Assembly: GCF_014652695.1 (NCBI RefSeq)
Contig: NZ_BMZH01000002.1
Span: forward strand, 176,656 to 240,655
Direction of reading: 5' to 3'
DNA: 64,000 nucleotides
DNA from: Algimonas arctica
Lineage (GTDB): Bacteria > Pseudomonadota > Alphaproteobacteria > Caulobacterales > Maricaulaceae
Shown: one piece after another, positions 2,441-37,655 of the stretch
Position numbering within the stretch: position 1 is the stretch's first letter
How the letters are laid out: every line of letters starts with the position of its first letter
Made by a program: the position numbers and the translations under genes
Notes under the pieces: model-generated
Seen by the model: the letters and a program-made list of their open reading frames with translations, nothing else
What the model was told of the DNA's origin: nothing
Databases searched by the model: none

Positions 2441-4054
2441 TTAACCCAACCGCACGTCAATCATATCCGCCGTTTCTGCCGGCCCGTAAATCGCCACGAA
2501 AGACCCGAAGCGCGGGCCTTGGCTTTGGCCCATTGTGACTTCGTAAATCGCGGTGAACCAATCGCGCAGGTTCTCAAATTCATGGTCCTTTCCGACCGAG
2601 AACGTAATCGTCTGCAGCGCTTCGCCGTCCGTAACCTCGCTGGCATCGATTGCGCGCAGGCGGTTTGCCAGATCGCAGAGCGCCGTACGTTCTTGTTCCG
2701 TCGGCTCGCGATAAGCTTTCGTGGGCGCGACAAAATCCCGGTAATAACGCACGGCATAATCGCACAGACGGTCCAATTCAGGGTTCGCTTCTGGCGTCGC
2801 ATCCGGCGCATAGCGCGTGATGAAACCCCAAAGAATATCCTTGCTCGACGCGTTCGCCGCACTGACCAAATTGAGCAGCAGTTGATAGGTGAGCGGCGGA
2901 ATATAGCGTGGCGGTTTGCCGGAATGAATGTGCCAGACGGGATTGTTCAACCGGGCTTTTTCGTCCTGCCCCTCATAGGCGGCCAAGTGCTGATAATATT
3001 CGTCGACCATTTTCGGAATGACGTCGAAATAAAGTTTTTTCGCCACGCGGGGACGGAGAAATTGGAACAGCGACAGCGATTCCTGCGGCGCGTACTTCAA
3101 CCAGTCTTCGACCGAAATGCCATTGCCTTTGGTCTTCGATATCTTCTCGCCTTTTTCATCGAGGAACAGCTCATAAACATATTGCACCGGTGGTTCGCCG
3201 CCAAGAATTTTACAAATCTTGGAATAGATCGGCGCATTATCCTGATGGTCCTTGCCAAACATTTCAAAGTCGACGCCGAGCGCCGCCCAGCGCATGCCGA
3301 AATCGGGTTTCCATTGCAGTTTGACGTTACCGCCTGTGACAGGAAGCGTGACCTCCGTGCCGTCATCATCAGCAAAAGTAATCGTGCCCGCTTTGGCATC
3401 GACAGACGTCATCGGCACGTAGAGCACGCGGCCAGAGGTTGGACTTATCGGGAGGAACGGCGAATAGGTTGCTCGGCGTTCTTCGCCGAGTGTCGGCAAC
3501 ATGACCGCCATAATGTCGTCGAACTTGTCCAGCGCGCGTAGTAAATACTCGTCAAAGGCGCCGGATTTGTAGAGCGCCGTCGCGGAGCGGAATTCATAAT
3601 CAAAGCCAAACCCGTCGAGAAAGGATTTAAGCCGCGCGTTCATATGATCGCCATAGCTCGCGTGCGTGCCGAACGGGTCCGGCACGGTCGTGAGCGGCTT
3701 TTGCATATGGGCTTCCAACATCTGCGCGTCGGGCACAGTCGCGGGGATTTTGCGCATCCCGTCCATGTCGTCAGACACGCAGAGGATCACCGTCGGGATT
3801 TGCCCGTCCGTGATCGCTTCGAACGCATGGCGCACCATGGTCGTACGTACGACTTCGCCAAACGTGCCGATATGCGGCAGGCCAGACGGACCATAGCCGG
3901 TTTCGAAAACTACGGGGCCGTCGCGCTTTATGCCGCGTTTGCTCTCAATAAACAGCCGCTTGAGGATATTGCGCGCTTCCTCAATCGGCCAAGCTTTGGC
4001 TTTGATATGCTCAGGATCGAGGTCTTTGAGGTTGATATTGTTCGGGTCAATCAT
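2441..4054 (-). CDS. lysS: lysyl-tRNA synthetase, class I
   Basis: Charges tRNA-Lys with lysine. This is the class I (archaeal-type) enzyme found in many alphaproteobacteria, unrelated to the class II LysRS of E. coli. The HIGH-type signature is visible in [14 protein letters not shown] (about residues 56-68) and the KMSKS-type loop as [10 protein letters not shown] (about 303-312), both typical of class I LysRS. I choose the ATG at 4054, giving 537 residues beginning MIDPNNINL; the frame is open to 4174 but the extra 40 residues are not family-like. It is divergent from argG, with 276 bases between the two starts. Some databases use lysK for this class. Confidence 0.94.
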
Positions 4055-4272
4055 GGGGGTGCACATACGAGGTTGAGGGGGGGAAGTATAGCCAGCCAAA
4101 CGGCGCATTCCATGCACCTGCTTTTCACCGCACATCACCGGGCCGGATAAAGTCTCGTGAGGCCAAATGACCAATATTTACGCGTCTAAATCCTATCGAT
4201 TTGCGCGCCGAAGCCTATTAAGGGAATGCGTTCATATCGAAACGGTTCTGCAACCTCGTTCCACCATACCCC

Positions 4273-4300
4273 TTGAACCGTTTGCGTGTCGCGCTATGTC
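4273..4300 (+). promoter_or_regulatory. candidate sigma70-type promoter of argG
   Basis: TTGAAC at 4273-4278 and TATGTC at 4295-4300 are separated by 16 bases and sit 31 bases before the argG ATG. Match to the general consensus is moderate. The rest of the 276-base gap between lysS and argG shows no gene or clear RNA structure. Confidence 0.35.
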
Positions 4301-4330
4301 CCGCCCTAATACTCGCCTCGAAAGCCCATC

Positions 4331-5554
4331 ATGTCCAAGCGTAAAAAAGTTGTTCTCGCCTATTCTGGCGGTCTTGATACCTCGATCATCCTGAAATGGT
4401 TGCAAGAGGAAAAAGGCTATGAGGTCGTCACCTTTACGGCGGACCTGGGTCAGGGCGAAGAACTGGAGCCTGCGCGCCGCAAGGCTGAGGCCGCTGGTGT
4501 CAAAGAAATCTACATTGATGACCTGCGCGAAGAATTTGTGCGCGATTTCGTCTTCCCGATGTTCCGCGCCAATACGGTTTATGAAGGGCTTTACCTGCTC
4601 GGCACGTCCATTGCGCGGCCGCTGATTTCCAAACGCCAGATCGAAATTGCGCATGAAGTCGGGGCCGACGCGGTCTGTCACGGCGCAACGGGCAAGGGCA
4701 ATGATCAGGTCCGGTTTGAACTGGCTTACTATGCGCTCGATCCAGAAATTAAAGTCATCGCCCCGTGGCGCGAATGGGAATTGAACTCCCGCACCTCACT
4801 GCTGGACTATGCCGAGAAACATGGCATTGAAATCGCGGCCGACAAGCGCGGCGAAGCGCCGTTTTCCGTCGATGCGAACCTGCTGCACACCTCCTCCGAA
4901 GGTAAAGTTCTGGAAGATCCGAATGAGGATGCGCCGGAATATGTTTATCAACGCACCGTATCCCCTGAGGCCGCACCGGACAAAGCCACCGTCATTGAGA
5001 TCGGATTTGAGCGCGGTGACGCCGTGTCGATTGATGGCGTCGCAATGTCGCCCGCCACCTTGCTGACTAAACTCAATGAGCTAGGCGGCGCGAACGGCAT
5101 TGGCCGTCTCGACCTGTTAGAAAACCGTTTTGTCGGCATGAAGTCACGCGGCGTCTATGAAACTCCGGGCGGGACAATTCTGTTGATGGCGCACCGCGGT
5201 ATTGAGCAGATTACGATGGATAAGGGCGCTGCGCACCTCAAAGATGAGCTGATGCCGAAATATGCCGAACTGATATACAATGGCTTCTGGTATTCACCTG
5301 AACGCGAAATGCTCCAAGCCGCTATCGATGCCAGCCAAGAGATGGTGACAGGCACGGTTCGCTTGAAACTCTACAAAGGCAATTGCGACGTCGTCGGCCG
5401 CGCCTCACCTTACTCGCTCTATAGCCAAGAACATGTCACTTTTGAAGAAGACGATGTTTATGATCAGGCCGATGCCGGCGGGTTCATCAAAATCAACGCC
5501 CTGCGTCTGCGCCTGCTAAAAGCGCGGGATCGTAAGGCGGGGAAGAATAACTAG
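4331..5554 (+). CDS. argG: argininosuccinate synthase
   Basis: Joins citrulline and aspartate with ATP to give argininosuccinate, the penultimate step of arginine synthesis; argH, the next enzyme, is at 56604 in this same window. The N-terminal PP-loop ATP-binding motif AYSGGLDTS is at residues 10-18, and the conserved [14 protein letters not shown] segment (citrulline/ATP site) follows near residue 117. The length of 407 is standard. There is no strong Shine-Dalgarno sequence before the ATG. It stands alone, not in an operon with other arg genes. Confidence 0.97.
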
Positions 5555-5610
5555 CGCCTTTACAGCCGCAGTCTAGCGCTTCACGGTCTTCCCATAAGGG
5601 GAGACTGGTC

Positions 5611-7440
5611 ATGATATCACGACGCGATTTTTTGAATGGGGCGCCGATTGCGATAGGGGCGGCGCTATCTCCGGCCTTACTGAATGCCTGTGCGGAGACC
5701 GGGACGGTCGACCCCTTCGCGCTCCCGAGTGGTTACTACCCGCCCGCGAAAACAGGCCTTCGGGGCAGCCACGACGGGTCGTGGGAACCGATGCACGGCG
5801 TCGTATCCGGCGAAACGATTGAGCACGGCGCACCCGGAGAAACTTATGATTTGGTCGTGATTGGTGCGGGCATGAGCGGGCTGGCGGCGGCGTGGTATTT
5901 CCGCGAAGCCAAGCCCGACGCGCGCATCCTGATCCTGGATAATCACGACGATTTCGGGGGCCACGCCAAGCGTAACGAATTTGATGTGAACGGCACATTC
6001 CGCATGGGTTATGGCGGCACGGAAGCCATTGATACGCCGAGTGGATATGACCCGGATGCGATGCGTCTTTTACGCGGGGTCGGGATCGAGGTAGATCGAT
6101 TCTTTGAATATTTCGACCAAGAGTTCTGGGACCGCGAAGGCCTGTCCAAATCCATCCTGTTCGACGCCGAGACGTTTGGCGAAACCAAACTCGTGCCCGG
6201 TTATGGATCGCGTCCGTGGGCCGAGTTCGCCGCCGACATGCCCGTTAGCGATAGCGCCAAAGCAGAGTTTGTGCGGCTGCAAACCTCGACCGAGGATTAC
6301 CTGCCGGGTCTCACATTTGATGAGAAATACGCGTTGCTGCGCAAGACCTCCTATGAAGACTTCTTGCGCGACTATGCCCGGGCCCCCGAAGAGGTCATCA
6401 ATATTTATAAACGCTGGGGCATGAGTTTTTGGTGCGTCGGCATGGACGAAGTGCCGACGACCCTGATCCAAAATTATGATGGCGGCCTGCCCGGCGTCGC
6501 CCATACGCTACCGCGCACCGGATCACGCAATGATGATCCGTATATTTTCCACTTTCCAGACGGCAACGCGTCAATCGCGCGGCTGATGGTGCGCAGCCTG
6601 ATCCCCGACGCGATGCCCGGATCAACCATGGAAGATGTGGTCTTGGCCAAAGCCGACTATACTGCACTGGATCGTCCCGATCAGCCCGTGCGGTTGCGTC
6701 TGAACAGTACGGCGGTGAAGCTCAACAATTTACGCGACGGCGTGGCTGTGACCTATTCGCGGGCCGGGAACACGCACACGGTGCGCGCCGGACACACGAT
6801 CATGGCTGGCTATAATATGGCGCTGCCCTATCTCTGTGATGAGCTGCCAGAGGCCCAAGTCGCGGCCCTGGGGTCCGTGCCGAAAATCCCGCTTGTTTAT
6901 ACTAAAGTCGCCGTCCCTGACTGGCAGCGATTCAAGGATATCGGCACAGATTTCGTCTATTACCCCGACGGATTTTATAAGCAGGTCGAGTTCGCCTATC
7001 CCGTCTCTATCGGCGGTTATAGCGCCGTGACCACGCCGGATGAACCGATGGTCCTACATATGTGTCATGTGCCGTGGGTGCCGGACACGCAGGGGCCCGC
7101 ACAATGGCGTGAAGGACGGATGCGCATTTTGAGCACGCCGTTTGAGACATTCGAGCGCCATGTGAAAGCGCAACTCAGCCAAGCCTTAGCGGGCCATGAC
7201 TTTGATCCGGAGCGCGATATTAGCGCGATCACGGTCAACCGCTGGCCGCATGGTTATGCCTATTCGTCCGAGTTAATTTGGGAGCCGGATTACGCCAGCG
7301 AGGCTGACAAACCGTGGGTGATTGGACGGCAAGCAATCGGGCGCATCCATGTGGCCAATTCAGACGCAGGGGCAAAAGCCGATACGGGCGTTGCGATGGC
7401 GCAAGCCCACCGCGCGGTCATGGAAATCCTCGCGGCTTAG
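5611..7440 (+). CDS. Tat-exported FAD-dependent oxidoreductase, spermidine dehydrogenase-like
   Basis: Predicted periplasmic flavoprotein of 609 residues. The N-terminus SRRDFLNG followed by a hydrophobic stretch is a twin-arginine signal; a cysteine at 27 (LLNAC) could make it a lipoprotein, though the lipobox is poor. A Rossmann FAD site is clear as VVIGAGMSGLAAAW (GxGxxG at 85-90), followed by the ILDNHDDFGGHAKRNEF segment characteristic of the SpdH-type spermidine dehydrogenases. These oxidise spermidine and pass electrons to an acceptor other than oxygen; the substrate here is inferred from family only. The stop codon overlaps that of the opposite-strand gene (TTAG at 7437-7440). A ribosome site (ggggag) precedes the ATG. 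Confidence 0.8.
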   Translation: MISRRDFLNGAPIAIGAALSPALLNACAETGTVDPFALPSGYYPPAKTGLRGSHDGSWEPMHGVVSGETIEHGAPGETYDLVVIGAGMSGLAAAWYFREAKPDARILILDNHDDFGGHAKRNEFDVNGTFRMGYGGTEAIDTPSGYDPDAMRLLRGVGIEVDRFFEYFDQEFWDREGLSKSILFDAETFGETKLVPGYGSRPWAEFAADMPVSDSAKAEFVRLQTSTEDYLPGLTFDEKYALLRKTSYEDFLRDYARAPEEVINIYKRWGMSFWCVGMDEVPTTLIQNYDGGLPGVAHTLPRTGSRNDDPYIFHFPDGNASIARLMVRSLIPDAMPGSTMEDVVLAKADYTALDRPDQPVRLRLNSTAVKLNNLRDGVAVTYSRAGNTHTVRAGHTIMAGYNMALPYLCDELPEAQVAALGSVPKIPLVYTKVAVPDWQRFKDIGTDFVYYPDGFYKQVEFAYPVSIGGYSAVTTPDEPMVLHMCHVPWVPDTQGPAQWREGRMRILSTPFETFERHVKAQLSQALAGHDFDPERDISAITVNRWPHGYAYSSELIWEPDYASEADKPWVIGRQAIGRIHVANSDAGAKADTGVAMAQAHRAVMEILAA

Positions 7441-8273
7441 TTCAGTCCTTCGACCGTCTCCAAAAAGGCGAGCACCTCGGGCTCGCCAGCAACAGGATCG
7501 CTCGTCACCGTCTTGGTCAGTGGGAATTGCGCTTGGGCGTAATCCGGTGACGGTTGTGCAGCACGAAAAATCTGCCCCAGAATAAGCATGATCACCACCC
7601 CGGTCAGAAGCCCCATCAAGAAGGGCTTACGGGCACTGGCTGTAACCGGTCCGGTTTCGGGTTGCGGATCGGGATAGGGCGCGTGACTTGGGGGGAGCTT
7701 CCCCCGACCTGTGAGCCGCGACAATAAAGACGCGCGAGCGCCCGCAGGCTCTATGACCGCGCTAGGCACAGTCGCTTGCGGGTAGGCATAGGCGGGCTGC
7801 CCCGCATAATTTGGGTCATAAGGCCCATTTTGATCAAATTGCCGTGGCGCGTAGGCTGGGTTTTGGGTGTCCATGCCGGGATAAACGTCCGCATCGGTGT
7901 ATTGCGCCGGATATGGCGGCGCGGCCTGTTGCGCGGGAGGCGTGGCTGCGTGGCCCGGATAGGGCGCGCCAGTCTGATAGGGGGGCGCTGCATACGGGTC
8001 GCCCTGATAAGGCGCAGAGTGATGGGACGGCGGATCATAAGGCCGGGGGGCCGCGTGTGGCAGGTTATCTTGCACCAAGGGGGGCGGCGTTGTCACAGCG
8101 GGCGTTGCGGAGCGGGCTGAATGGGCTGCCAGTCCACCCGCAGCGCGTCGGGGATCAAATGCAGGAGCTTGCGGCCCTGTTTGGGGCGCGCTCCCGCCTT
8201 GTCCCGCGCTGCTGTCAGGATTCCGCCAAACTTGGGGCGTGTGGCCATCAGAGGGCGGGACGGAATCAGTCAT
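7437..8273 (-). CDS. proline/tyrosine-rich single-pass membrane protein
   Basis: Unrecognised protein of 278 residues, started at the ATG at 8273 (MTDSVPPS); a longer frame to 8333 exists. About two thirds of it is low-complexity, rich in Pro, Tyr, Ala and Gln, with irregular repeats such as PPYQTGAPYPG and PPYPAQY. A single strongly hydrophobic helix (FLMGLLTGVVIMLILGQIF) lies near residues 216-236, followed by about 42 residues. With no signal peptide, the Pro-rich part is probably cytoplasmic and the short C-terminal part periplasmic. It is an orphan between two oxidoreductases. Function unknown. Confidence 0.65.
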   Translation of the reverse strand: MTDSVPPSDGHTPQVWRNPDSSAGQGGSAPQTGPQAPAFDPRRAAGGLAAHSARSATPAVTTPPPLVQDNLPHAAPRPYDPPSHHSAPYQGDPYAAPPYQTGAPYPGHAATPPAQQAAPPYPAQYTDADVYPGMDTQNPAYAPRQFDQNGPYDPNYAGQPAYAYPQATVPSAVIEPAGARASLLSRLTGRGKLPPSHAPYPDPQPETGPVTASARKPFLMGLLTGVVIMLILGQIFRAAQPSPDYAQAQFPLTKTVTSDPVAGEPEVLAFLETVEGLN

Positions 8274-8438
8274 CAAGTGAGCCTTGTCAGCGGACCGATG
8301 CGCGCTCGGCCGTGCGTGACGCGGTTGAACCATGCCGAGGCTAAGACGGTGTTAAAAACCCGCCTTCCAGCCAAAATTATTTCGTAAGCGAGACAATCGC
8401 CATCGTCAGTCGCGGACGGCATCGGCAGGAAAGCGGCG

Positions 8439-9725
8439 CTATGTATGGGAGTTCCTGTCTAACCACGCCTTGTAACGCTTCGTTTGCACGGCTTGATTTT
8501 TCTGCTGCACGAGCGACGCGACGACCGGATTGACCTTGTTTTTCGGCGCTTTTCCGTGGCTCATCCGGCGCAGGTTCGCTTTGGCGATGGCCATATTGGC
8601 GAGGCTTCGGATGGCAGGAATTTTCCAATTTACCGTCTGCACGGGGCCGGCGATATTTTCGCCCGCTTTCCAGCGATTGGGCAAATCCGGCGTAATAATC
8701 AGGGCCCGCGCCATGCCGACCATCGCGATTCCGGCGGTGCCGAGTACGCGGTCGGCCGTATCGCGCTGTGTCACGCCGCCGGTCACTATTAAGGGCATCG
8801 TCGCCGCCGTGGCAATTTGCTCTGCAAATTCGAGGAAAAACGCTTCGCGTCGAAGTGTGCTTTGACTGACGCGCCCATCCGCACTTTCGCCCATCATGGC
8901 GGAGCTTTCATACGTCCCGCCGGAAATTTCGACAAAATCAATCGCTTCTTTTCCGAGCCATTCGACGACTTGGGTTGCGTCCTTCACCTCAAACCCGCCT
9001 TTTTGGAAATCAGCTGAATTGAGCTTCACACCGACGATAAAGTTTGGGCCGACCCGATCACGGATCGAGCGGACAATCTCAAGCAAAAGCCGTGCGCGAT
9101 TTTTCAAGGACCCGCCCCATCCATCTTCGCGGCGATTGGTCAGGGGTGAGAGAAATTGCGCCAGCAGGTAGCCATGCGCCGCGTGGACTTGCACGCCGTC
9201 AAACCCGCACGCTTGCGCGGCCACTGCCGTCTCCCCGAAATGCCGGATCAGGCCACGGATTTCACCGTCAGTCATGGCGCGGGCGGAGGCGAACATATTA
9301 TTAATCGCGTCCGAACCCATATCGAGTTTCGAATCTGATGCGCTCACCGCCTCTTGGCCTTGCGCCGCATAGAGCTGCCGTCCCGGATGGCTGATCTGCA
9401 TGACCAATTTCGTATCATTCGCTTGGCCCGCTTGCGCCCAGCGTTCGAACCGCGCGCGCACGTCCGGATTATCTAGCGTGTCGCGTTTTAACACCACCGC
9501 GCCCGGACCAGTCAGAGCGGTTTCATCAACCATGACATTGCCCGTTAACAGCAGGCCTGCGCCGCCTGCCGCCCACGCCGAATAAAGATTGACCAATTGT
9601 TCGCCCGGCACTTGGCCCAGGCCCGAAACCTGGTCCGCCATGTTTTCTTCCATCGCGCCTTTGGCAATCCGGTTCGACAGGACGTGCCCACAAGCAAGCG
9701 TCAGGGGAGAGAAGAGTTCGGTCAT
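8439..9725 (-). CDS. old yellow enzyme family NADH:flavin oxidoreductase
   Basis: FMN-dependent ene-reductase-type enzyme of 428 residues with a TIM-barrel fold. Visible family landmarks are the HAAHGYLLAQFLSP motif (substrate/hydride site with the paired His and the Tyr), RREDGWGGSLKNRARL directly after it, and the phosphate-binding region LIVTGGVTQRDTADRVL. It lacks the C-terminal FAD/NAD domains of the 2,4-dienoyl-CoA reductases, so it is the single-domain form. The C-terminal 70 residues are basic and less conserved. The natural substrate cannot be told from sequence. Confidence 0.9.
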   Translation of the reverse strand: MTELFSPLTLACGHVLSNRIAKGAMEENMADQVSGLGQVPGEQLVNLYSAWAAGGAGLLLTGNVMVDETALTGPGAVVLKRDTLDNPDVRARFERWAQAGQANDTKLVMQISHPGRQLYAAQGQEAVSASDSKLDMGSDAINNMFASARAMTDGEIRGLIRHFGETAVAAQACGFDGVQVHAAHGYLLAQFLSPLTNRREDGWGGSLKNRARLLLEIVRSIRDRVGPNFIVGVKLNSADFQKGGFEVKDATQVVEWLGKEAIDFVEISGGTYESSAMMGESADGRVSQSTLRREAFFLEFAEQIATAATMPLIVTGGVTQRDTADRVLGTAGIAMVGMARALIITPDLPNRWKAGENIAGPVQTVNWKIPAIRSLANMAIAKANLRRMSHGKAPKNKVNPVVASLVQQKNQAVQTKRYKAWLDRNSHT

Positions 9726-9755
9726 ACCATCGCCCCTAGGGCATCTTGGATCAAA

Positions 9756-9782
9756 GAAAAAGGCTCCGCCAAAGCGAAGCCT
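9756..9782 (-). terminator. Rho-independent terminator
   Basis: On the minus strand GGCTTCGC pairs with GCGGAGCC around a short loop and is followed by TTTTTC. It lies downstream of the pyridoxamine-phosphate-oxidase-like gene and before the old yellow enzyme gene, so the two are probably separate transcripts. Confidence 0.7.
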
Positions 9783-9824
9783 GTATTCATATCTGGCGGT
9801 CTTGCCGCCACCGCAGCGTCCAGA

Positions 9825-10352
9825 TTAAGCGGCTATGATCTTGCTACTCCCAACGTCAGGCAGCGTGTCCGTTATATTGGCCTTGGCCGTTTCATAGGCA
9901 AATTTGAACGGATTTCCGGTCGAGGCCCAAACGGCCGCCGTGATCGGCACGAATTTCAACATCAGCATCTTCGGATCGCCTTTACCGTCCGGGTACCAGC
10001 TCGCGGCAATCGGATTCCAGAACCGCTCAATTAGGGTTGGATCATTCAACACAGGATAAATCGCGCCTTCGACGCACGCCTGATAATCACTCCCAATATG
10101 AGTTGCCATCACGCGGGCGCCCGGATTTTTCATGATGGCTTTGCCGAGGTCGGACGTGTTATCCGAGAAGAAATAGATCACGGAATCGCCGCCCTCTTCG
10201 ACCGTTTTGACCGTTTGCTTATCAATTTGCGGGGCCATCGGCTGCATATGTTCACTCGCAACGGGTGAACCCAGCATAACGCAGCGCGCGCCTTTAATTT
10301 CTTTGAGCAGCTGGAGTTTAGGTTCAGTTTCGAATTTCGATAGATCGGCCAT
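9825..10352 (-). CDS. pyridoxamine 5'-phosphate oxidase-like general stress protein
   Basis: Small FMN-binding split-barrel protein of 175 residues, resembling the general stress protein 26 group. Supporting features are the N-terminal barrel strand around GARCVMLGSPV, the DSVIYFFSDNTSDLGKAI segment and the C-terminal ASWYPDGKGDPKMLMLKFVP, a signature of this subfamily in which the protein binds FMN or FAD and is induced by stress. True PNPOx activity is unlikely because the substrate residues of PdxH are not apparent. It is a single gene with its own terminator downstream. Confidence 0.82.
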   Translation of the reverse strand: MADLSKFETEPKLQLLKEIKGARCVMLGSPVASEHMQPMAPQIDKQTVKTVEEGGDSVIYFFSDNTSDLGKAIMKNPGARVMATHIGSDYQACVEGAIYPVLNDPTLIERFWNPIAASWYPDGKGDPKMLMLKFVPITAAVWASTGNPFKFAYETAKANITDTLPDVGSSKIIAA

Positions 10353-10493
10353 TTGGCGGTTGCTCCATTGAGTGTGTTGAACCCAAACAACGCGTTCATA
10401 GTAAACGCAGTTCCCTTATGAGTTTACCGCCAGCAAATTTCGTCGAATGTATTGACCTTGGCCTATGAGTGAATTCACCCTAAACATTTGGTC

Positions 10494-11090
10494 GTGCGCA
10501 GACTCACACTCTTACTAATAATACTGAGCGCCGCTTGTGCGCCAACGCCACGTGAGAATCCGTTCGAACATTCGCCCGCAACATTTATGGCCGTTATTGC
10601 AGAGCCTGTTTCAACGCGGCCGGATGATAATTGGAACCCTGTCACAAGAATTCCCGGCACCGAAGAGAACGAGTACGTGGACACAATAATCGTCAGCAAT
10701 GGACAACCCTATTACCGTGAGTTCCGTGTCATTGATGACCTCGATAGCGGCTACCGTGGCCGCATAATTAACGCCGTTATTAAAACTGAATTTGAGTACA
10801 AGCTTTTAACAGACGTAGACAGGGTCCTTCTTTTTTTGAAGCGAGGTGGCGATAGTTTTTCTCAAGTTGAAGAATATGAAGTCTTTCCAACCAAACGGCG
10901 CGGGTGGGCAATATGTACAGGCACGCAACCCGAGCTCATACTAGAAACAGTGACATCACAACCGATCATGTTCGTTGATAGTCCCGCCATTGAACAAGAT
11001 CGTGAATCGACTCTGTGTACATATGGGGTTCCCATAGAGACGATAATTGAAATCCAAACCAGCTACTTTAACGAACGTCACGTTGATTGA
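10494..11090 (+). CDS. putative lipoprotein, unknown function
   Basis: Protein of about 198 residues with an N-terminal lipoprotein signal: basic start (MRRL), hydrophobic LTLLLIILSA and the lipobox SAAC. I prefer the GTG at 10494; a TTG at 10488 is also possible and no ATG is available. The mature part has alternating strands, few repeats and three further cysteines. Its base composition is visibly richer in A and T than the flanking genes, which may mark a recently acquired or fast-changing gene. The neighbours do not suggest a role. Confidence 0.6.
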   Translation: MRRLTLLLIILSAACAPTPRENPFEHSPATFMAVIAEPVSTRPDDNWNPVTRIPGTEENEYVDTIIVSNGQPYYREFRVIDDLDSGYRGRIINAVIKTEFEYKLLTDVDRVLLFLKRGGDSFSQVEEYEVFPTKRRGWAICTGTQPELILETVTSQPIMFVDSPAIEQDRESTLCTYGVPIETIIEIQTSYFNERHVD

Positions 11091-11326
11091 CGTCGCCGCC
11101 AAGCCTTCCAAAGCCCGTAACCGCTAATCAGCAACCAAAACACTTCGATCACGAAGCTGGCGAGATTAAAGGTGAAATAGAGCGACACCATAATCAGCAG
11201 CGCCCCGCTGCCATTGACCGCGGAAAAGCGCCAGTCCTGCGCCGGGAGGCGGTCCGTCTGAACACCCCAATAAGCGCATAAGATCAAGGACACGCCTATC
11301 AGGCCAATGAGGTCGGGAAGAGTCAT
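11078..11326 (-). CDS. small membrane protein, CBU_0592-like
   Basis: Protein of 82 residues with three hydrophobic helices: a first around DLIGLIGVSLILCAYWGV, then GSGALLIMVSLYF and a third, FVIEVFWLLISGYGLW, followed by a basic tail. The pattern NLASFVIEVFW matches the small family known from CBU_0592. The start at 11326 overlaps the stop of alkB by four bases (ATGA), so it is probably translated by coupling after alkB. It also overlaps the 3' end of the opposite-strand lipoprotein gene by 13 bases. Function unknown. Confidence 0.72.
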   Translation of the reverse strand: MTLPDLIGLIGVSLILCAYWGVQTDRLPAQDWRFSAVNGSGALLIMVSLYFTFNLASFVIEVFWLLISGYGLWKAWRRRQST

Positions 11327-18681: not shown

Positions 18682-18873
18682 ATGGGTCAGTTATTCCGCA
18701 AAGAAGCGATGGAGCGACGGTCACGCGCTTTGTTTGGCGAGGTTATACTTCGTGGTCCTTTACCCGCATGGGTCGTTGTCGGGCTACTTTTTATAACGAT
18801 CGGGCTCATCGGGTTTGTGCTGTTTGGCATCAATGTCGGGGATCAAACGGTTTGGAGCTGGCTACGTGATTAG
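18682..18873 (+). CDS. 63-residue HlyD N-terminal-like membrane protein
   Basis: Small membrane protein with a cytoplasmic segment LFRKEAMERRSRALFGEVIL, one membrane helix (about 28-50, WVVVGLLFITIGLIGFVLFG) and a short outer tail ending WSWLRD. The cytoplasmic part is the N-terminal signature of HlyD-family adaptors that work with C39-peptidase exporters (LFR.EA....R...GEV.L). A normal adaptor continues for over 300 residues of periplasmic coiled coil and lipoyl/barrel domains; here the frame simply ends in TAG. The GTG start of the exporter lies within its last codons (8-base overlap), so the two are translationally coupled. It may be a minimal partner for the exporter or a truncated adaptor; the clean overlap favours a functional gene. 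Confidence 0.75.
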   Translation: MGQLFRKEAMERRSRALFGEVILRGPLPAWVVVGLLFITIGLIGFVLFGINVGDQTVWSWLRD

Positions 18874-20947
18874 TCGGTTCACCTCCAAAACACCCGTTAT
18901 TTTACAAACAGAAATGACGGAATGTGGCCTCGCCTGCTTGGCGATGGTCTCGCGCTTTCACGGCCATGATGTCGATTTGAACAGCCTGCGGGAAAAATAT
19001 CTTCTGTCCATGCGCGGCACGTCGCTCAAACAAATCATCAAAATTTCGGGCGAGTTGTCCCTGTCACCGCGTGCGCTCAAGGTGGATCTGGATCAGCTAC
19101 ACAAGCTGGCGCTACCCGCGATATTGCATTGGGATCTCAACCATTTTGTTGTGCTGACCCGTGTCCGCAACGACCATATCGAAATTATTGACCCCGGGAT
19201 TGGCCGCAGGACCTTAAAACTGTCCAAAGTTTCGGATCATTTTACGGGCATTGCGCTCGAACTTACCCCGGCGGCAGATTTCCAACCTGTCACCGACCGC
19301 ATCCGCCCGAAACTCTCTGATCTTTGGTCATCCCTTGTCGGGGCCAAACGCGCCGTCGCGCAAACGCTCGCCCTCTCCGTAGCCCTGCTCGCGACACTTC
19401 TCCTCGCGCCATTCTTCTTTCAACTGATTGTCGATGCGGTCCTGCCGAGCCCAGGGCAGCCCGGAGGGGATCGTGGCTTGCTCATCGCGTTGGCCGTTGG
19501 GTTTGGCGGATTAGCTGTGTTGCGCGCCGTGGTCGAAGCGGCGCGGGGCTATACGATTATCACCTTTGGCGCACAGCTATCGCGGCAAATGGTCGGAAAT
19601 ATTTTCCGCCATTTGATCCGTCTACCCGCACGCTATTTCGAACGTCGCCATGTCGGCGACATTATCAGCCGGATGAATTCAACGCAGCCGATCCAAGAAG
19701 CCCTCTCGCATTCGGTTGTCTCGGTCCTGATTGACGGGATTATGGCCGTCTTAATGCTGGTCATTATGTTCATGTTCTCGCCGCTCTTGGCGTTAATCGT
19801 GGTCGCCACGACGGCTTTGCTCGTTCTCGCGACCCTACTCATCTATCCACGCCTGCGCGCCACCCAAGAAGAGGCGATCTATGCGCGTGCGCTGGAGAAC
19901 AGCCACGTTATTGAGAGCATTCGCGCGTCAACGACTGTTAAATTGTTCGGGCGCGAAGCCGAACGCGAAGCAAGTTGGGCCAATCTATTCACGGATTTCG
20001 TCAACGCCGATGTTGGACACCAACGCTGGAATGTGGCGCAAACCTTCGTGCAAACGCTCATCATTGGCTTACAAGTTGTGGGCGTTGTTGTGGCCGCTGC
20101 TTGGGGCATGACGCAGCCAGGGTCGACGTTTACAGTCGGCATGCTTGTCGCCTTTTTGATCTACCGCCAGTATTTTTCCGACGCCGTGGTGCAGCTTGTT
20201 ACCAAGGGCAATGAGTTTCGCCTGCTTTCGCTTCACCTCGACCGACTGGCCGATATTGTTCATGCTCGCACAGAGACGGATCAAGCGGGATATGAGCCCT
20301 TAGGGGACGTCAAAGGTCGGATCACATTGGATGCGGTGACCTTCGCTTATTCGTCTGAGGATCCCAATGTCGTCACAGACTTTACGCTCGACGTTTCCGC
20401 TGGCGAAATGGTGACTCTGACAGGCCCAAGCGGGGGCGGGAAAACCACCTTAATGAAGCTCATGTTGGGGCTTTATGCGCCGATCGACGGTCATGTGAAA
20501 ATTGATGGCCGCGACCTATCTACCATTGATCCCTCCGCCTGGCGTAACCGTGTTGGCGTTGTCATGCAGGACGACCGCCTTCTCTCTGGGACTATTGCGG
20601 ATAATATCGCGTTCTTCGATCCTGAAATTGACATGCAGCGGGTCACGCGCGCCGCGAGCGCCGCCCGCATCCACGACACAATCGTTGCGATTCCTATGAA
20701 TTACCTCGCCATGATCGGTGATATGGGATCAATTCTGTCAGGCGGACAGAAACAACGCTTGCTGCTGGCGCGCGCGCTCTATCAAGAACCCGATGTGCTT
20801 TTCCTTGATGAAGGAACAGCGAACCTTGATGTCGAAACAGAGGCAGAAATCGTCAGCCTTGTAGCAGGATTGGCAATAACGCGGGTTATTGTCGCCCACC
20901 GCCCTGCCTTCCTTGAGGCCAGCGACCGAATTATCCAGATACCGTAG
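18866..20947 (+). CDS. C39-peptidase-containing ABC exporter for double-glycine peptides
   Basis: A 693-residue peptidase-containing ABC transporter that cuts double-glycine leaders and exports the released peptide across the inner membrane. The N-terminal C39 domain has oxyanion Q14, catalytic C20 (TECGLACLAM), H93 (HWDLNHFVVL) and D109 (IIDPGIGRR). Six membrane helices follow. The nucleotide-binding domain has Walker A GPSGGGKTT, signature LSGGQKQRLLLARAL, Walker B VLFLDEGTANLD and H-loop VIVAHRP, so all catalytic parts look intact. The GTG at 18866 is chosen because it overlaps the upstream gene and places the peptidase at the N-terminus; the frame is open a little further upstream. A GG-leader gene lies 211 bases downstream and is the obvious substrate. 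Confidence 0.93.
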   Translation: MISRFTSKTPVILQTEMTECGLACLAMVSRFHGHDVDLNSLREKYLLSMRGTSLKQIIKISGELSLSPRALKVDLDQLHKLALPAILHWDLNHFVVLTRVRNDHIEIIDPGIGRRTLKLSKVSDHFTGIALELTPAADFQPVTDRIRPKLSDLWSSLVGAKRAVAQTLALSVALLATLLLAPFFFQLIVDAVLPSPGQPGGDRGLLIALAVGFGGLAVLRAVVEAARGYTIITFGAQLSRQMVGNIFRHLIRLPARYFERRHVGDIISRMNSTQPIQEALSHSVVSVLIDGIMAVLMLVIMFMFSPLLALIVVATTALLVLATLLIYPRLRATQEEAIYARALENSHVIESIRASTTVKLFGREAEREASWANLFTDFVNADVGHQRWNVAQTFVQTLIIGLQVVGVVVAAAWGMTQPGSTFTVGMLVAFLIYRQYFSDAVVQLVTKGNEFRLLSLHLDRLADIVHARTETDQAGYEPLGDVKGRITLDAVTFAYSSEDPNVVTDFTLDVSAGEMVTLTGPSGGGKTTLMKLMLGLYAPIDGHVKIDGRDLSTIDPSAWRNRVGVVMQDDRLLSGTIADNIAFFDPEIDMQRVTRAASAARIHDTIVAIPMNYLAMIGDMGSILSGGQKQRLLLARALYQEPDVLFLDEGTANLDVETEAEIVSLVAGLAITRVIVAHRPAFLEASDRIIQIP

Positions 20948-21158
20948 AGCGGGATTTATACATTTACACCCCACTATTGCGTGAAATTTATAATTATACC
21001 TCCTTTACGTGTATAAAATACCGCGTTTTAACAGTCTGTTAACCATAATTGTCCCGATTTAGCGACTTAGCGCTTGTTAACGATGACTGAGTCTTGTCTA
21101 AATTGGTACTCACGAGTGGTATCCTCCGCTCGTGTCACATCTAGAGGGATCAACTCAC
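20948..21158 (+). promoter_or_regulatory. AT-rich regulatory region before the GG-peptide gene
   Basis: This 211-base stretch is markedly AT-rich compared with its neighbours and holds no convincing gene. It contains the CtrA-type box at 21028-21043, a second half-site TGTTAACGAT at 21075-21084 that repeats TGTTAACCAT at 21037-21046, and a GANTC methylation site (GAGTC) at 21089-21093. A loose promoter is TTGTTA (21074-21079), 17 bases, TCTAAA (21097-21102). The ribosome site GAGGGA is at 21144-21149. Confidence 0.55.
21028..21043 (+). promoter_or_regulatory. CtrA-type binding box
   Basis: The sequence TTAACAGTCTGTTAAC is an exact TTAA-N7-TTAAC, the consensus for the alphaproteobacterial cell-cycle regulator CtrA. 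It is also a palindrome (TTAACAG-T-CTGTTAA). It lies 116 bases before the GG-peptide start. Binding by CtrA is inferred from the match and from the likely lineage. Confidence 0.6.
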
Positions 21159-21227
21159 ATGCGTGAACTTACAGTTGAAGAACTTGACGTCGTAACCGGT
21201 GGCGCACCGATTATCGTCGACTTTTAG
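21159..21227 (+). CDS. 22-residue double-glycine precursor with a seven-residue core
   Basis: Tiny gene that I read by hand. It has GAGGGA nine bases before an ATG, a leader MRELTVEELDVVTGG and a core APIIVDF, then TAG. The leader fits the Gram-negative GG-leader consensus (MRELT..EL..V.GG, as in microcin V). The cut after the second Gly would release a heptapeptide with two acidic-side features only (one Asp, free C-terminus) and a hydrophobic centre. The upstream C39 exporter is the natural processing enzyme. Directly after the stop, a strong terminator ends the transcript. Such a short core is more like a signalling peptide than a pore-forming bacteriocin, but that is inference. An alternative is a gene shortened by a nonsense mutation: the frame stays open for 24 codons past the TAG. 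Confidence 0.72.
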   Translation: MRELTVEELDVVTGGAPIIVDF

Positions 21228-21266: not shown

Positions 21267-21292
21267 AACCCGCTCTTTGAGCGGGTTTTTTC
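21267..21292 (+). terminator. Rho-independent terminator after the GG-peptide gene
   Basis: AACCCGCTC and GAGCGGGTT form a perfect nine-pair stem with a TTT loop, followed by a run of T. It begins 39 bases after the TAG of the peptide gene. It marks the end of a real, short transcript and supports the 22-codon gene. Confidence 0.9.
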
Positions 21293-21362: not shown

Positions 21363-23615
21363 ATGCTTAGAAGTCTGCTTGTAATTTTTTGTGCATCCCT
21401 TTGCTCATTCACTGTAGCATTGGCCGCTGATGCACGCCCAATTAATGAGTCAATTGTCGAGTTTCTCAATCAAAAAGAATGGACCCCGCTAGAACTCTTA
21501 TCATCGACAAACACTGAAAAAATGACGGTTAAGCTCATTCAAGAGGCCTCAGAAGCACTTTATACATTTGATTCAGACCGGCTTGGAAAATCGATCACAG
21601 ACGCCAAGAATGCCGACATCGTCGGCGATATACATTGGGATCGAACGCTCCTCTTTGTCGAAGGTATTTCGGATATCATTGCGCAAAGTGATGACGCCAC
21701 GCGCACAGAAAACTTGATCCAGTATTTGGATGGTTTCGGTTTCGCAGATGATTGGTTTTTAAATTCAGTCTCTCAAAGCCTCTCGGCCTTCTTATACGTG
21801 TCCCGAAACCAACTTCTCGTCGGCACAGAACGTATTGATTCCGCGATGAAAGTCATCCCGAGTGAGCTGTCCCCACAGGTGACGTCGGCCCGTATTCTGG
21901 CCTCTGACATCGCGATGGTCTTGCATGGCTTGCAAGGGAAACCCGACTTTATGCTTGAAGCCGCTAGGCTGCAAAGTCAGGCCAAGGCGAGTATTGGGGA
22001 AACCATTGATCGTTATGAGCTCATGACAAACTTTGTGTATGCCCTGAATCGCGCGCGTGAGTACGAAAGCGCCGCACAGGTCGCCGAGTTACTTATTGTA
22101 GAGCCTCACTCTGAGACAACTGCGTCTGGCGTTGCAGAAGCCTATATGGCGGCGACGTTTAATGAGATTGGCGATTATAATCGTGCCGAAAGATTGTCTC
22201 TCACCGCCTTGGAGAGCACAACGCACGCCGCGATTGAATCCCGCGCGACCCTCGAACGTTTGGTTGCATTGGCCGGGCAAGGTAAAGTTGCTGACGCTGA
22301 AAGTCTCATGACAACACGGGGCTGGAAACATAGTCCCGGTGAATTACTCAAAGACATTGATAACCAGTCGATCCTACACGCCGAAGCGCTTCTCGCGATG
22401 CACCGCGACGAATCCCCTTATGCGCTCGCGCTGATGAAGCGCCGGGCCGATCTCCTGATCAATCAAGTTCAGTCCGCAAATTCAGCTGATATTAGCGCCA
22501 TGCTGTCTAATTTGGAAAACACACGGGACCGACAGGTCGAACGCGAAGGCGCGCTGCAACGCGAAACGGAGATGAGAGCCGTACAGCTTGAGCAAAAGAC
22601 CAAGCTGAACCGCTTGCTCTGGGTTCTGATTGGCGGGCTAACGATTGCCTTTAACTTCTTGCTCGCTTTCCTGCGCTACCGCGAAAAACTCAGTGTGAAA
22701 GTTCAAAGCTTGCAAGAAGATGCGCTCTCGGCTGAAAAAATGAAGACTGAATTTCTCGGCCTTATTAATCACGAAATCCGCACCCCTCTCAACGGTATTA
22801 TCGGGATAAGTGACGCGATGATCCATCATGCGCCCAACCCAACAATGCGCGCACAAGCCGAAATCGTACAAGAAAGCGGGCAGCTCCTCTTTGACCTGCT
22901 GGATAGTCTGATCACCATGTCGACGATTGAGGGCAATCGCCTGTCTTTAGACAAAGAAGAGGACGTCCTCGCGAAAACCATTCGGCGTGAAGTAGCCGAA
23001 TGGGACAATGCCGCGGCCAAAAAAGATCTCATCTTCACTCACTTCATTGGCGCAGAGTTAGAAGACGCGGTCATTACCGATCACAAGCGCATTCGCCAAA
23101 GCCTGCACTATTTATTGTCCAATGCTATCCGCTTTACCCAAGTGGGGCGCGTGCATCTCCATGCGACAGCGATACAAGACAGGAACGGCCATCTAGACGT
23201 AACCATCGTTGTTGCTGATACGGGTCAAGGGATCAGTGAAGATGTTCAATCGCGGCTGTTCCAGCCCTTCTTGCAAGCTGACGCGACTATGACACGCAAA
23301 TATGGCGGAGCCGGCCTCAGCTTGGCCATTGCGCGTAAGCTAGCGCGTATGATGCGGGGCGACTTAGTCGTTAAATCACGCGAAGGCCGCGGGACTGAGT
23401 TTACCTTTACGGCCCGGATTCCTCTGGCTGAACCCACGGCACACGCTTTGCCAGATGACCGCGCAGCCGCCGCAACGGCCCCTCTTCTTCTGACGCTGGA
23501 TGATGTCGAGGAACCGGAAGCAATTATTGATCTGATGCTCGGCGAGCAACTCCTCGGCGCGCGCCCAGTCGCTCTAGGTGAAACAAGCACGAGAAATTAT
23601 AAAGCCACCGGCTAA
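21363..23615 (+). CDS. sensor histidine kinase with TPR-like extracytoplasmic domain
   Basis: A 750-residue membrane kinase. It has a signal peptide (about 1-22), then some 360 residues of helical, TPR-like repeats predicted outside the cytoplasmic membrane, a coiled coil (about 380-415), one membrane helix (about 418-438), a HisKA domain with H470 (GLINHEIRTPLNGIIG) and a HATPase domain with N587 (YLLSNAIRFT), DTGQGIS near 619 and a GGAGLSLAI lid. There is no receiver domain; the last 60 residues are a tail ending RNYKATG. No response regulator gene is adjacent. It lies 136 bases after the GG-peptide stop, beyond the terminator, so it has its own promoter. By position and by the peptide-binding habit of TPR domains, it is a candidate receptor for the exported peptide; that is inference. 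No strong ribosome site precedes the ATG. Confidence 0.88.
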   Translation: MLRSLLVIFCASLCSFTVALAADARPINESIVEFLNQKEWTPLELLSSTNTEKMTVKLIQEASEALYTFDSDRLGKSITDAKNADIVGDIHWDRTLLFVEGISDIIAQSDDATRTENLIQYLDGFGFADDWFLNSVSQSLSAFLYVSRNQLLVGTERIDSAMKVIPSELSPQVTSARILASDIAMVLHGLQGKPDFMLEAARLQSQAKASIGETIDRYELMTNFVYALNRAREYESAAQVAELLIVEPHSETTASGVAEAYMAATFNEIGDYNRAERLSLTALESTTHAAIESRATLERLVALAGQGKVADAESLMTTRGWKHSPGELLKDIDNQSILHAEALLAMHRDESPYALALMKRRADLLINQVQSANSADISAMLSNLENTRDRQVEREGALQRETEMRAVQLEQKTKLNRLLWVLIGGLTIAFNFLLAFLRYREKLSVKVQSLQEDALSAEKMKTEFLGLINHEIRTPLNGIIGISDAMIHHAPNPTMRAQAEIVQESGQLLFDLLDSLITMSTIEGNRLSLDKEEDVLAKTIRREVAEWDNAAAKKDLIFTHFIGAELEDAVITDHKRIRQSLHYLLSNAIRFTQVGRVHLHATAIQDRNGHLDVTIVVADTGQGISEDVQSRLFQPFLQADATMTRKYGGAGLSLAIARKLARMMRGDLVVKSREGRGTEFTFTARIPLAEPTAHALPDDRAAAATAPLLLTLDDVEEPEAIIDLMLGEQLLGARPVALGETSTRNYKATG

Positions 23616-34772: not shown

Positions 34773-37655
34773 TTATTCGCTCTCGGCTTCCATGTCGGAC
34801 AGGGCCACATCGTCGAGCGAACGGTCGATCATTTCGACCGTGAAACATTCGATCTGGTCACCCTTGCGAAGATCTTCGTATTTTTCGAAGGCCATACCAC
34901 ATTCCATGCCACTCTGGACCTTTTCGACTTCGTCCTTGAAGCGTTTGAGGGTCTTGAGCGTGCCTTCATGAATGACGACATCGTCACGCAGCAGACGCAC
35001 ACCGGAGCCCCGTTCGACACGGCCATCGGTCACGCGGCAACCCGCGATCTTGCCGAGCTTGGAGATGTTGAACACTTCCAGAATTTCGGCGTAACCGATG
35101 AAGGTTTCGCGACGTTCAGGTTTGATCATGCCGGTCAGCACGCCTTCGACCATTTCGATCAATTCATAGATGATCGAATAGTAGCGAATTTCGACACCTT
35201 CACGCGCCGCCATCTCTTTGGCTTGCTTGTTCGGGCGGACGTTAAACGCAATGATCGGTGCGCCCGCTGTCATGGCCATCTGAACGTCGCTCTCTGAAAT
35301 CCCGCCGGCTTCGGCGTAAATAACATTGGCGCGAACTTCTGAGTTGCTTAGCCCTTCGAGCGACGCTTTGATCGCTTCGGCAGACCCTTGAACATCGGCT
35401 TTGACCAGCAGAGGCAGCTCGTTGACTTCCTTGTTCTGCAATTTCGCCATCATCTGTTCCATCGACGCGAGAGCAGACGGCTGTGAGGCCGTGACTTTGC
35501 GTTTCAGGCCTTGACGATATTCGACGATTTCACGGGCCTTTTGTTCGCCTTCGACAACCGCAAACGGTTCGCCTGGCATTGGTGCACCGTCCAGACCCAT
35601 GACTTCGATCGCCATACTTGGTCCGGCGGTTTTGAGTTGCTTGCCGCGCTCATCCATCATGGCTTTGACCTTGCCCATATACTCATCGGCCACGATCATA
35701 TCGCCACGTTTCAGCGTCCCGCGTTTGACCAACAAAGTCGTGACAGCGCCGCGACCTTTTTCAAACCGCGATTCAATCACAAGGCCATCCGGATTGCGTT
35801 TCGGATTGGCTTTCAGCTCCATCAGTTCGGCTTGCAGCGTGATCGCTTCGGCCAGCTCTTTTAGACCTGTTTTTTTCTTGGCAGAGACAGGAATGGCTTG
35901 CACGTCACCCGACATATTTTCTGTCACAATATTATATTGAAGCAGGTCGGTTTCGACTTTAAGTGCGTTCGCCTCATAGGTATCCATCTTATTGATGGCG
36001 ACGATAATCGGCTTATTGGCGTCTAGCGCATAGCGGATCGACTCGATCGTTTGTGGCTTAACGCCATCATCCGCCGCGACGACAAGGACAACAATGTCGA
36101 CCGCTTCCGCGCCGCGGGTTCGCATTTGTGCGAACGCCGCGTGGCCCGGCGTATCTAGCACGGTGATTTTATCGCCTGTCGCCAATTGCAACTGATAGGC
36201 ACCGATATGCTGCGTAATCCCGCCCGCTTCGCCAGAGGCGACATCGGTGGAGCGCAAAGCATCGAGCAAAGATGTTTTACCGTGATCGACGTGACCCATG
36301 ATCGCAATCACAGGCGCACGAGGTTTACGGTCTTTTTCAGCTGACGGTTCATCATCGATAAGGAAGTTATCTTCGACATCGGCGTCCGAGACACGTTTGA
36401 CCGTGTGACCAAAATCTTCGACGATCAGCTGTGCCGTATCGGCATCAAGCACGTCGTTCATAGTCGACATGGTGCCTTGCTGCATGAGGTATTTCACCAC
36501 ATCCGCGCCCCGTTCCGCCATCCGGTTGGCCAAATCAGCGATCGTGATCGTTTCCGGCACAACGACTTCGCGCTGAACTTTTTCACGGGATCCAGATCCA
36601 CCCATACGGCGCTGGCGTTCACGTTCGCGCTTCCGCTTAACCGCGGCGAGCGACCGTTGACGTTCATCATTGCCCGAAAGGGCTGACACGATGGTAAGCT
36701 TACCGCGACGCCGTTTTTGCTCACCCTTAGACCGGGTTGGCGGCGGCGTGTTGCGCTTCTTCTTGATGCGTCCGCCCGCTTTTTCGATCTCGGAAAGCTC
36801 TTCGCCTTCCGTGCGTTCGAGCGGAGAGCCGACACTTTTACGTTGCAGGCGCTCTTGGTTTTCTTTTTCTTTTTCGCGCTTCGCTGTCTCTTCTTCTTCG
36901 ATGCGTTTCAATTCGGCTTCTTCTTCGGCCTTTTTCTTGGCTTCCAATTGGGCCTGCTCATCGCGCATCCGAGCCTGACGGGCTTCGGCTTCGGCGGCTT
37001 TCTTGATAGCCCGTTCAGCGGATTGAGCTTGTGCTTTCATCAAGGCGGCTTGACGCGCCTTATATTCAGCCACGGACAAGCCAAGACCGCGTGCCGCAGC
37101 CGCAATATCCGCATCACTCACTTTTGGGGCAGCCGGTTTCGGTTTAGGGGTCGGCTTGGGAATTGGTTTCGCTTCCGCTGCCGAGATAATTGGCGGTGCC
37201 AAAGTCGGCCCTTTCGGGGCCGCGCCTGTCTTTATCGTCGCGGCTTGCGGGCCTGTTGCAGGGCGCGCGTCGTCAGCGTCCGGCTTTGGAATATCCACGG
37301 CTTTTGCCGCCGGGCTCTCAACCGGCGCTGTTGGCGCTGGCGTAGGCGCTTCAGCCACAGGGGCCGCAGGCGCTGGCGCGGGCGTCGCGGTCACGGGCGT
37401 TGGCTTTGGGGCAACCGGTGCTGGCGTCGGAACGGGCGCCGGAGGCGGCGTCGGCGTATTTTTCGGTGTCAGCTGAATCTTTGGTTTCACCCCGGCCGAG
37501 CCTGTTGCGCCGGCTCCCGGTTTGATCAAACGCTTCTTTTTCTTTTCAACGACGACGGCCGATGGGCGCGCGCCTGTCCGGCGCGGTCCCCGGGTCGGGC
37601 CACCTGGGCGTCCCCCAATTGGGCCGCGCGGTCGGTTGTTATTATTGTCGCTCAT
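34773..37655 (-). CDS. infB: translation initiation factor IF-2
   Basis: GTPase that places initiator tRNA on the 30S subunit and promotes 50S joining. The G motifs are [12 protein letters not shown] (G1), DTPGHAAF (G3) and NKMD (G4). The N-terminal 390 residues are long and low-complexity: a Pro/Ala-rich segment (about 55-190) and a highly charged Glu/Lys/Arg helix region (about 210-345), as in other alphaproteobacterial IF-2 proteins. Total length 960. It is the last gene of the rimP operon and is followed by a terminator. Confidence 0.97.

Follow-up and report, generated by a model that had tools for sequence, protein, structure and literature searches.

A 63-residue HlyD-like protein without a recognizable periplasmic arm accompanies a C39 exporter in a candidate peptide-signaling module of Algimonas and related bacteria

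The streptococcal ComA/ComB/ComC/ComD system combines a C39 exporter, an accessory HlyD-like protein, a double-glycine leader, and a membrane kinase. HlyD/CvaA-type adaptors also adjoin C39 exporters, and their chains run to 406 to 487 residues. HetC of Nostoc, in the portion of the source consulted here (PMC10986499), is described as a C39 peptidase ABC exporter (PCAT) without a neighboring membrane fusion protein. The receptors of the RRNPPA systems (Rap, NprR, and AimR) are presented in sections of another paper (PMC9765709) as cytoplasmic proteins of Firmicutes with HTH or three-helix-bundle output, which respond to re-imported peptides. Here we analyzed a window of 64,000 nucleotides, the whole stretch of DNA under study, from Algimonas arctica, in which a short HlyD-like gene (mini-HlyD), a C39 exporter, a tiny double-glycine precursor, and a histidine kinase are found together (Table 1).

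Table 1. Features of the four-gene module and their positions in the window
Feature	Position	Strand	Evidence
Mini-HlyD, 63 aa	18682..18873	+	ORF and translation; profile match to HlyD
Mini-HlyD cytoplasmic start (residues 1-26) and membrane helix (residues 27-49)			AlphaFold limits
Mini-HlyD tail (residues 50-63)	18829..18870	+	Profile test against 23 full-length HlyD
C39 peptidase ABC exporter (PCAT), 693 aa from GTG 18866	18866..20947	+	PF03412, PF00664, PF00005
TTAACAGTCTGTTAA, a perfect palindrome in the exporter-precursor interval	21028..21042	.	Palindrome scan
Precursor: leader MRELTVEELDVVTGG (21159-21203) and cargo APIIVDF (21204-21224)	21159..21227	+	Pattern scan
Terminator-like hairpin after precursor	21267..21287	+	Consensus scan
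Histidine kinase, 750 aa	21363..23615	+	Pfam HisKA, HATPase_c; hydropathy; AlphaFold

The window exporter was the sole PF03412 match of its genome and contained the C39 catalytic Cys together with the ABC membrane and ATPase domains. Its presumed start codon, GTG at 18866, lies, as the earlier note on this DNA had described, inside the last codons of mini-HlyD; the overlap is 8 nt (GTGATTAG). The C39 cysteine motif was kept in all 41 exporters linked to a mini gene, and the Walker and signature motifs were present in all full-length exporter rows, four rows being cut by contig ends. A His pattern, which was too narrow to judge the remaining rows, matched 22 of the 41.

The short gene had been likened in the earlier note to the start of HlyD adaptors, and the profile check bore this out. 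The mini-HlyD profile (41 rows) was aligned by hhalign to a full-length HlyD profile (22 rows, with L072 and partial rows left out) with a probability of 98.8 and an E value of 4.4e-17, over the first 51 mini columns, which fell on residues 3 to 53 of the HlyD profile. At the level of sequence, this shows the homology of the N-terminal part of mini-HlyD with the HlyD-type cytoplasmic segment and membrane helix. The 63-residue sequence searched singly matched no Pfam family even at E ≤ 10 and no sequence in the PDB; single HlyD N-termini searched against the window matched the mini-HlyD site, down to 1.1e-9. The HlyD arm searched against the window gave no match near mini-HlyD in any frame, consistent with the claim that no adaptor remainder is encoded downstream, and its best match (3.5e-4) fell within the ORF at 34773-37655, which was read as initiation factor IF-2. 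These searches show that no recognizable periplasmic arm (barrel, lipoyl, and helical hairpin) is present in the 63 residues, and mini-HlyD is thus a derived relative rather than a working adaptor of the usual kind. AlphaFold predicted the helix at residues 27 to 49, a turn, and a short helix at residues 57 to 62, with block confidences of 88 to 97 in the helix and tail half and low values in the cytoplasmic start. By the AlphaFold limits, 14 residues rather than the 13 of the note follow the helix. Six columns were invariant in the alignment of 41 of the 42 minis (L117 was left out): L4, R6, R15, G19, L23, and W60. In many relatives (L037, L040, L041, L048, L050, L051, L052, L054, L061, L062, and L063), a CTTA[AG]C-like hexamer was located about 10 nt before the mini start codon; it perhaps marks a regulator site or, if the transcript is leaderless, its -10 element.

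We examined the distribution of the short form, which was found in 33 of the 150 genomes searched (149 relatives and the window's own), including 15 of the 18 genomes of the genus. The 42 short genes obtained overall were about 63 to 106 residues long from the likely start, upstream of which some of the open frames run further. Named hosts of the mini loci were Hellea balneolensis, Litorimonas cladophorae, and Robiginitomaculum antarcticum, and further loci were found in Algimonas and uncultured Caulobacterales. A C39 exporter was visible directly downstream of 41 of the 42 short genes, and the stretch read at these 41 exporters held the short form only, with no full-length adaptor. The first tree also contained 27 exporters unaccompanied by a mini. 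An HlyD-like gene was located in the stretch read at 24 of them (mostly 406 to 487 aa, with one 274-aa frame and one 93-aa piece), and none was found there at the other three. In a careful tree of 47 exporters (22 of 69 were left out as far, partial, or near-duplicate rows), the 35 mini-linked rows formed one side of a branch with a support of 100/99, and all 200 bootstrap trees recovered this branch. For the mini gene, dN/dS was 0.04 to 0.32 in every pair with a computable dS, dS often being near saturation, and the gene is under purifying selection. The exporter tree and the gene comparisons show a conserved mini lineage of single origin, which agrees with the earlier suggestion of an evolved minimal subunit. 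A survey of other C39 exporters for a short upstream gene, which the note had proposed, placed it at the 41 exporters of one clade, and the interrupted full-length adaptor that would have spoken for recent decay was seen at none of these 41.

The nearest clade to the mini exporters had full-length adaptors and one 167-aa form at L064 (G047:C92:185500-203500, positions 8485-8988), which was left out of the mini counts. This HlyD-like protein, encoded upstream of a C39 exporter, has an HlyD-like C-terminus and is intermediate between the full-length and mini forms, as if a second, partial shortening had occurred in the sister clade; neither a tiny precursor nor a TPR kinase was found near it. 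Mini forms were also sought outside the bacterial family, and the class and phylum samples, in which at most the best 15 candidates per genome were scored, gave nearly all long frames. The class sample (385 genomes) yielded one match outside the window's genome, a 420-aa frame. The phylum sample (398 genomes) yielded 31 such matches, with HlyD-type N-termini, in 27 of 397 other genomes; 27 of the 31 were frames of 413 to 565 aa and the other four were of 283 aa (G091) and of 229, 84, and 72 aa (G632). The 84- and 72-aa frames start at contig base 44 and are therefore probably cut by contig ends.

The precursor ORF is placed between the exporter and the kinase, and its leader has Leu-12, Glu-8, and Leu-7 before the double glycine when compared with the leader consensus as given in part of PMC8277102. 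A tiny precursor was found in all 32 mini loci whose contig extends 400 nt or more past the exporter (the contigs of the other nine of the 41 end too early), compared with none of 25 exporters that lack a mini and none of 6400 shuffles. A single stretch of 6 to 11 residues followed the double glycine in 25 of the 32 loci, and tandem units were found in six precursors (e.g., IPVIDF four times, FPIIIG three times, and LPADIEW four times); the cargo at L063 was atypical, with 31 residues. An x-P-[IV] core, counted by eye, stood at the cargo start in 27 of 32 loci. The tandem precursors (L037, L039, L042, L049, L062, and L065) carry two to four near-identical units with short spacers and are located about 2.4 to 2.6 kb downstream of the mini gene. 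Such multi-copy precursors would require a further protease if the signal consists of one unit. At 14 of 26 other C39 loci, cargos of 47 to 114 residues were judged to be credible double-glycine cargos, although the loose pattern also yielded a few implausible ORFs, one of them with five residues after the motif. The tiny precursors found with minis, set against the larger cargos elsewhere, suggest that a small adaptor and a small cargo go together. Cleavage after the double glycine would most likely be carried out by the neighboring C39 domain. As for regulation, the palindrome upstream of the precursor may speculatively be a regulator site; a search for a shared palindrome at this place found a similar one only in L034, and a sigma-70 scan detected no promoter above chance.

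The kinase begins with a hydrophobic, signal-like segment, followed by a domain of about 400 residues, a membrane helix near residues 418 to 437, HisKA, and HATPase_c. Similarity identified its gene at 27 of the 32 loci. Of the other five, four show the start of a signal-like ORF at the kinase position ahead of the contig end, and the fifth is on a contig that reaches no further than 425 nt. The constant company of mini-HlyD, exporter, precursor, and kinase is thus shown by gene content across the loci compared. The ectodomain (window 21432-22697) was modeled by AlphaFold as an all-helical superhelix (pLDDT 88.9), and the top 11 VIA-align entries for it were Rap/NprR receptors, with Z scores of 15.3 to 16.9 over 286 to 317 aligned residues at an rmsd of 4.7 to 6.5. 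The next entry, at Z 15.2, was human LGN, an unrelated TPR protein, and Foldseek returned a designed TPR and then NprR and RapI. A TPR fold of the ectodomain is shown by these predictions, and the likeness to Rap/NprR is suggestive of peptide binding. The kinase is not a cytoplasmic receptor with HTH or three-helix-bundle output. A receiver domain was detected in four of five relatives' kinases scanned and was absent from the window kinase and that of L034, so that the downstream phosphorelay may differ in their subclade. Peptide and sensor distances showed no correlation when the kinase catalytic domain or the exporter was controlled for (n = 25, after two of the 27 kinase loci with a cut kinase were dropped from the coevolution and hydropathy sets; P = 0.58 and 0.78). 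In another family of the order, L143 (G132:C18:674000-688000, about 4034-11117) has a full-length HlyD on the opposite strand, adjoined by a C39 exporter and a kinase of the hybrid type, for which a helical domain in the periplasm is predicted. No convincing precursor was found at L143, which is perhaps a related signaling system that retained its adaptor.

We next considered how the short form arose. The earlier note regarded mini-HlyD as an HlyD reduced to its anchor, and a simple truncation of this kind would have kept only the anchor, the aromatic tail arising anew as a membrane-interface cap; the function of mini-HlyD would be the same as in our preferred explanation. The tail is short, and Trp-rich caps arise easily at membrane interfaces. 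When tails were compared with a 412-column profile of 23 full-length HlyD, however, 33 of 42 minis had their best nine-residue match at the HlyD C-terminus, against a mean of 3.5 and a maximum of 10 of 42 for shuffled tails (100 rounds). The mean tail score was 12.9 at the C-terminus, 3.5 (sd 0.45) for same-composition shuffles, and 3.9 at the region directly after the helix, the place that truncation predicts; the rows are related, and both the count and the scores overstate their independence. The conserved C-terminal motif was thus detected in the minis, more weakly in nine rows, and these nine tails fit another HlyD region better, as truncation would allow. The nearest full-length HlyD proteins end in ..ILEDRKIWEWMFDPL.. 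and similar sequences, and the mini tails read, for example, ..DGQTVWSWLRG, ..ENIPIWRWIFG, and ..GPVRLLDWILS; the 167-aa form of the sister clade likewise ends HlyD-like. Because the tail matches the extreme C-terminus, an internal deletion of the arm is more likely than truncation, which we consider unlikely, and mini-HlyD is probably not an anchor alone. We infer with good support from these tail scores that the periplasmic arm, of about 345 residues, was deleted from the middle and that the C-terminal end was kept. A decaying remnant of a full adaptor would be a natural thought, since full-length adaptors are present in the same bacterial family. The mini genes, however, go back to one origin, occur at 42 loci under purifying selection with invariant residues, and have kept a tight coupling to the exporter gene, which makes this reading so improbable that it can practically be set aside; recent decay in particular is contradicted by the dN/dS values and the exporter clade.

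The internal deletion would leave the cytoplasmic start, the membrane helix, and the C-terminal end of an HlyD/CvaA-type adaptor, and the reading that we somewhat favor is that of an armless HlyD bound to its exporter, with the peptide released to the periplasm and sensed there by the TPR kinase. HlyD without its N-terminal 45 residues gave no activation of the HlyB ATPase in the experiments covered by the available part of PMC4446572; mini-HlyD keeps this part, which suggests a bound regulator or stabilizer. The stub would then stay on the C39 exporter as a stabilizing or ATPase-regulating subunit without an outer-membrane conduit. The exporter would cut the precursor after the double glycine and free its cargo, a peptide about seven residues long (APIIVDF in the window), into the periplasm, where the TPR domain of the adjacent kinase would bind it. 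Porins pass molecules about as large as peptides of 6 to 11 residues. A trans-envelope tunnel would be unnecessary for such cargo, and without the arm the peptide would remain in the periplasm, from which it may also exit and enter cells via porins as a pheromone. Release only to the periplasm, as the note had proposed, is plausible and fits so small a cargo and a kinase with a periplasmic TPR domain; binding of the stub to the exporter, periplasmic release, and peptide sensing are all presumed steps. Alternatively, the stub might regulate or recruit, and the peptide might be sent to the medium by a TolC channel together with a different HlyD-type adaptor, both encoded elsewhere in the genome. 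HlyD_3 domains occur at 14 places and OEP domains (TolC-type channels) at 18 places in the window's genome, but no OEP place is on the window's contig, the genome has a single C39 exporter, and no other CvaA-type N-terminus was found in it (best other match, E 0.61). Moreover, at the cut-offs applied, 26 of the 33 mini genomes lacked any additional C39 exporter or HlyD-type N-terminus, and export through such a partner appears quite unlikely. Slightly less probable still is a bacteriocin-like or antimicrobial peptide, for which the kinase would be a regulator or self-immunity sensor rather than a pheromone receptor. Bacteriocins are common cargo of C39 exporters, and the double-glycine leaders weakly match bacteriocin signal models; the 6- to 11-residue cargos, some in exact tandem copies and most sharing the x-P-[IV] core, the lack of a constant immunity-like gene in the module (five loci), and the likeness of the TPR ectodomain to peptide receptors argue against it.

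Altogether, this four-gene module of a marine Caulobacterales lineage probably serves the production, export, and sensing of a peptide some seven residues long, its export route and signaling role being the presumptive parts. The fuller proposal of a Robiginitomaculaceae pheromone system, with an armless-adaptor PCAT, periplasmic peptides of 6 to 11 residues that are mostly of the x-P-[IV] type or come as multi-copy precursors, a kinase with a Rap/NprR-like TPR ectodomain, and no re-import, has in our view an even chance of being right. The module suggests that a C39 exporter can do without a trans-envelope conduit when its cargos are tiny. It offers a natural experiment that separates the roles of HlyD adaptors, as what remains after loss of the arm should equal the transporter's own need. 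For prosthecate Gram-negative bacteria, it also provides a peptide-signaling system open to testing, and the named hosts each come with a predicted synthetic ligand.

Compared with HlyD/CvaA-type adaptors, mini-HlyD shares the cytoplasmic start, the membrane helix, a WxW-like C-terminal end, and the adjoining C39 exporter, but it lacks the lipoyl, hairpin, and barrel regions. The module has the same set of parts as the ComA/ComB/ComC/ComD system, which differs in its longer pheromone, full-length accessory protein, and Gram-positive envelope, and whose ComD-type kinase is polytopic and without a TPR ectodomain. HetC resembles the module as a C39 exporter proposed to release a signaling substrate into the periplasm, and it differs from the window exporter in its cyclic-nucleotide-binding domain and, within the portion of PMC10986499 consulted, in having no reported adaptor stub. 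The RRNPPA systems, as presented in sections of PMC9765709, have a TPR superhelix similar in shape to the one predicted here and likewise a tiny peptide gene adjoining the receptor, whereas the window TPR domain is predicted to be periplasmic and is carried on a histidine kinase. Among the open-licence PMC papers searched, judged by title and the opening of the abstract, none described the four-gene module or an armless HlyD that accompanies a C39 exporter. The parts of the module are of known kinds, and the stub and the combination appear to be new.
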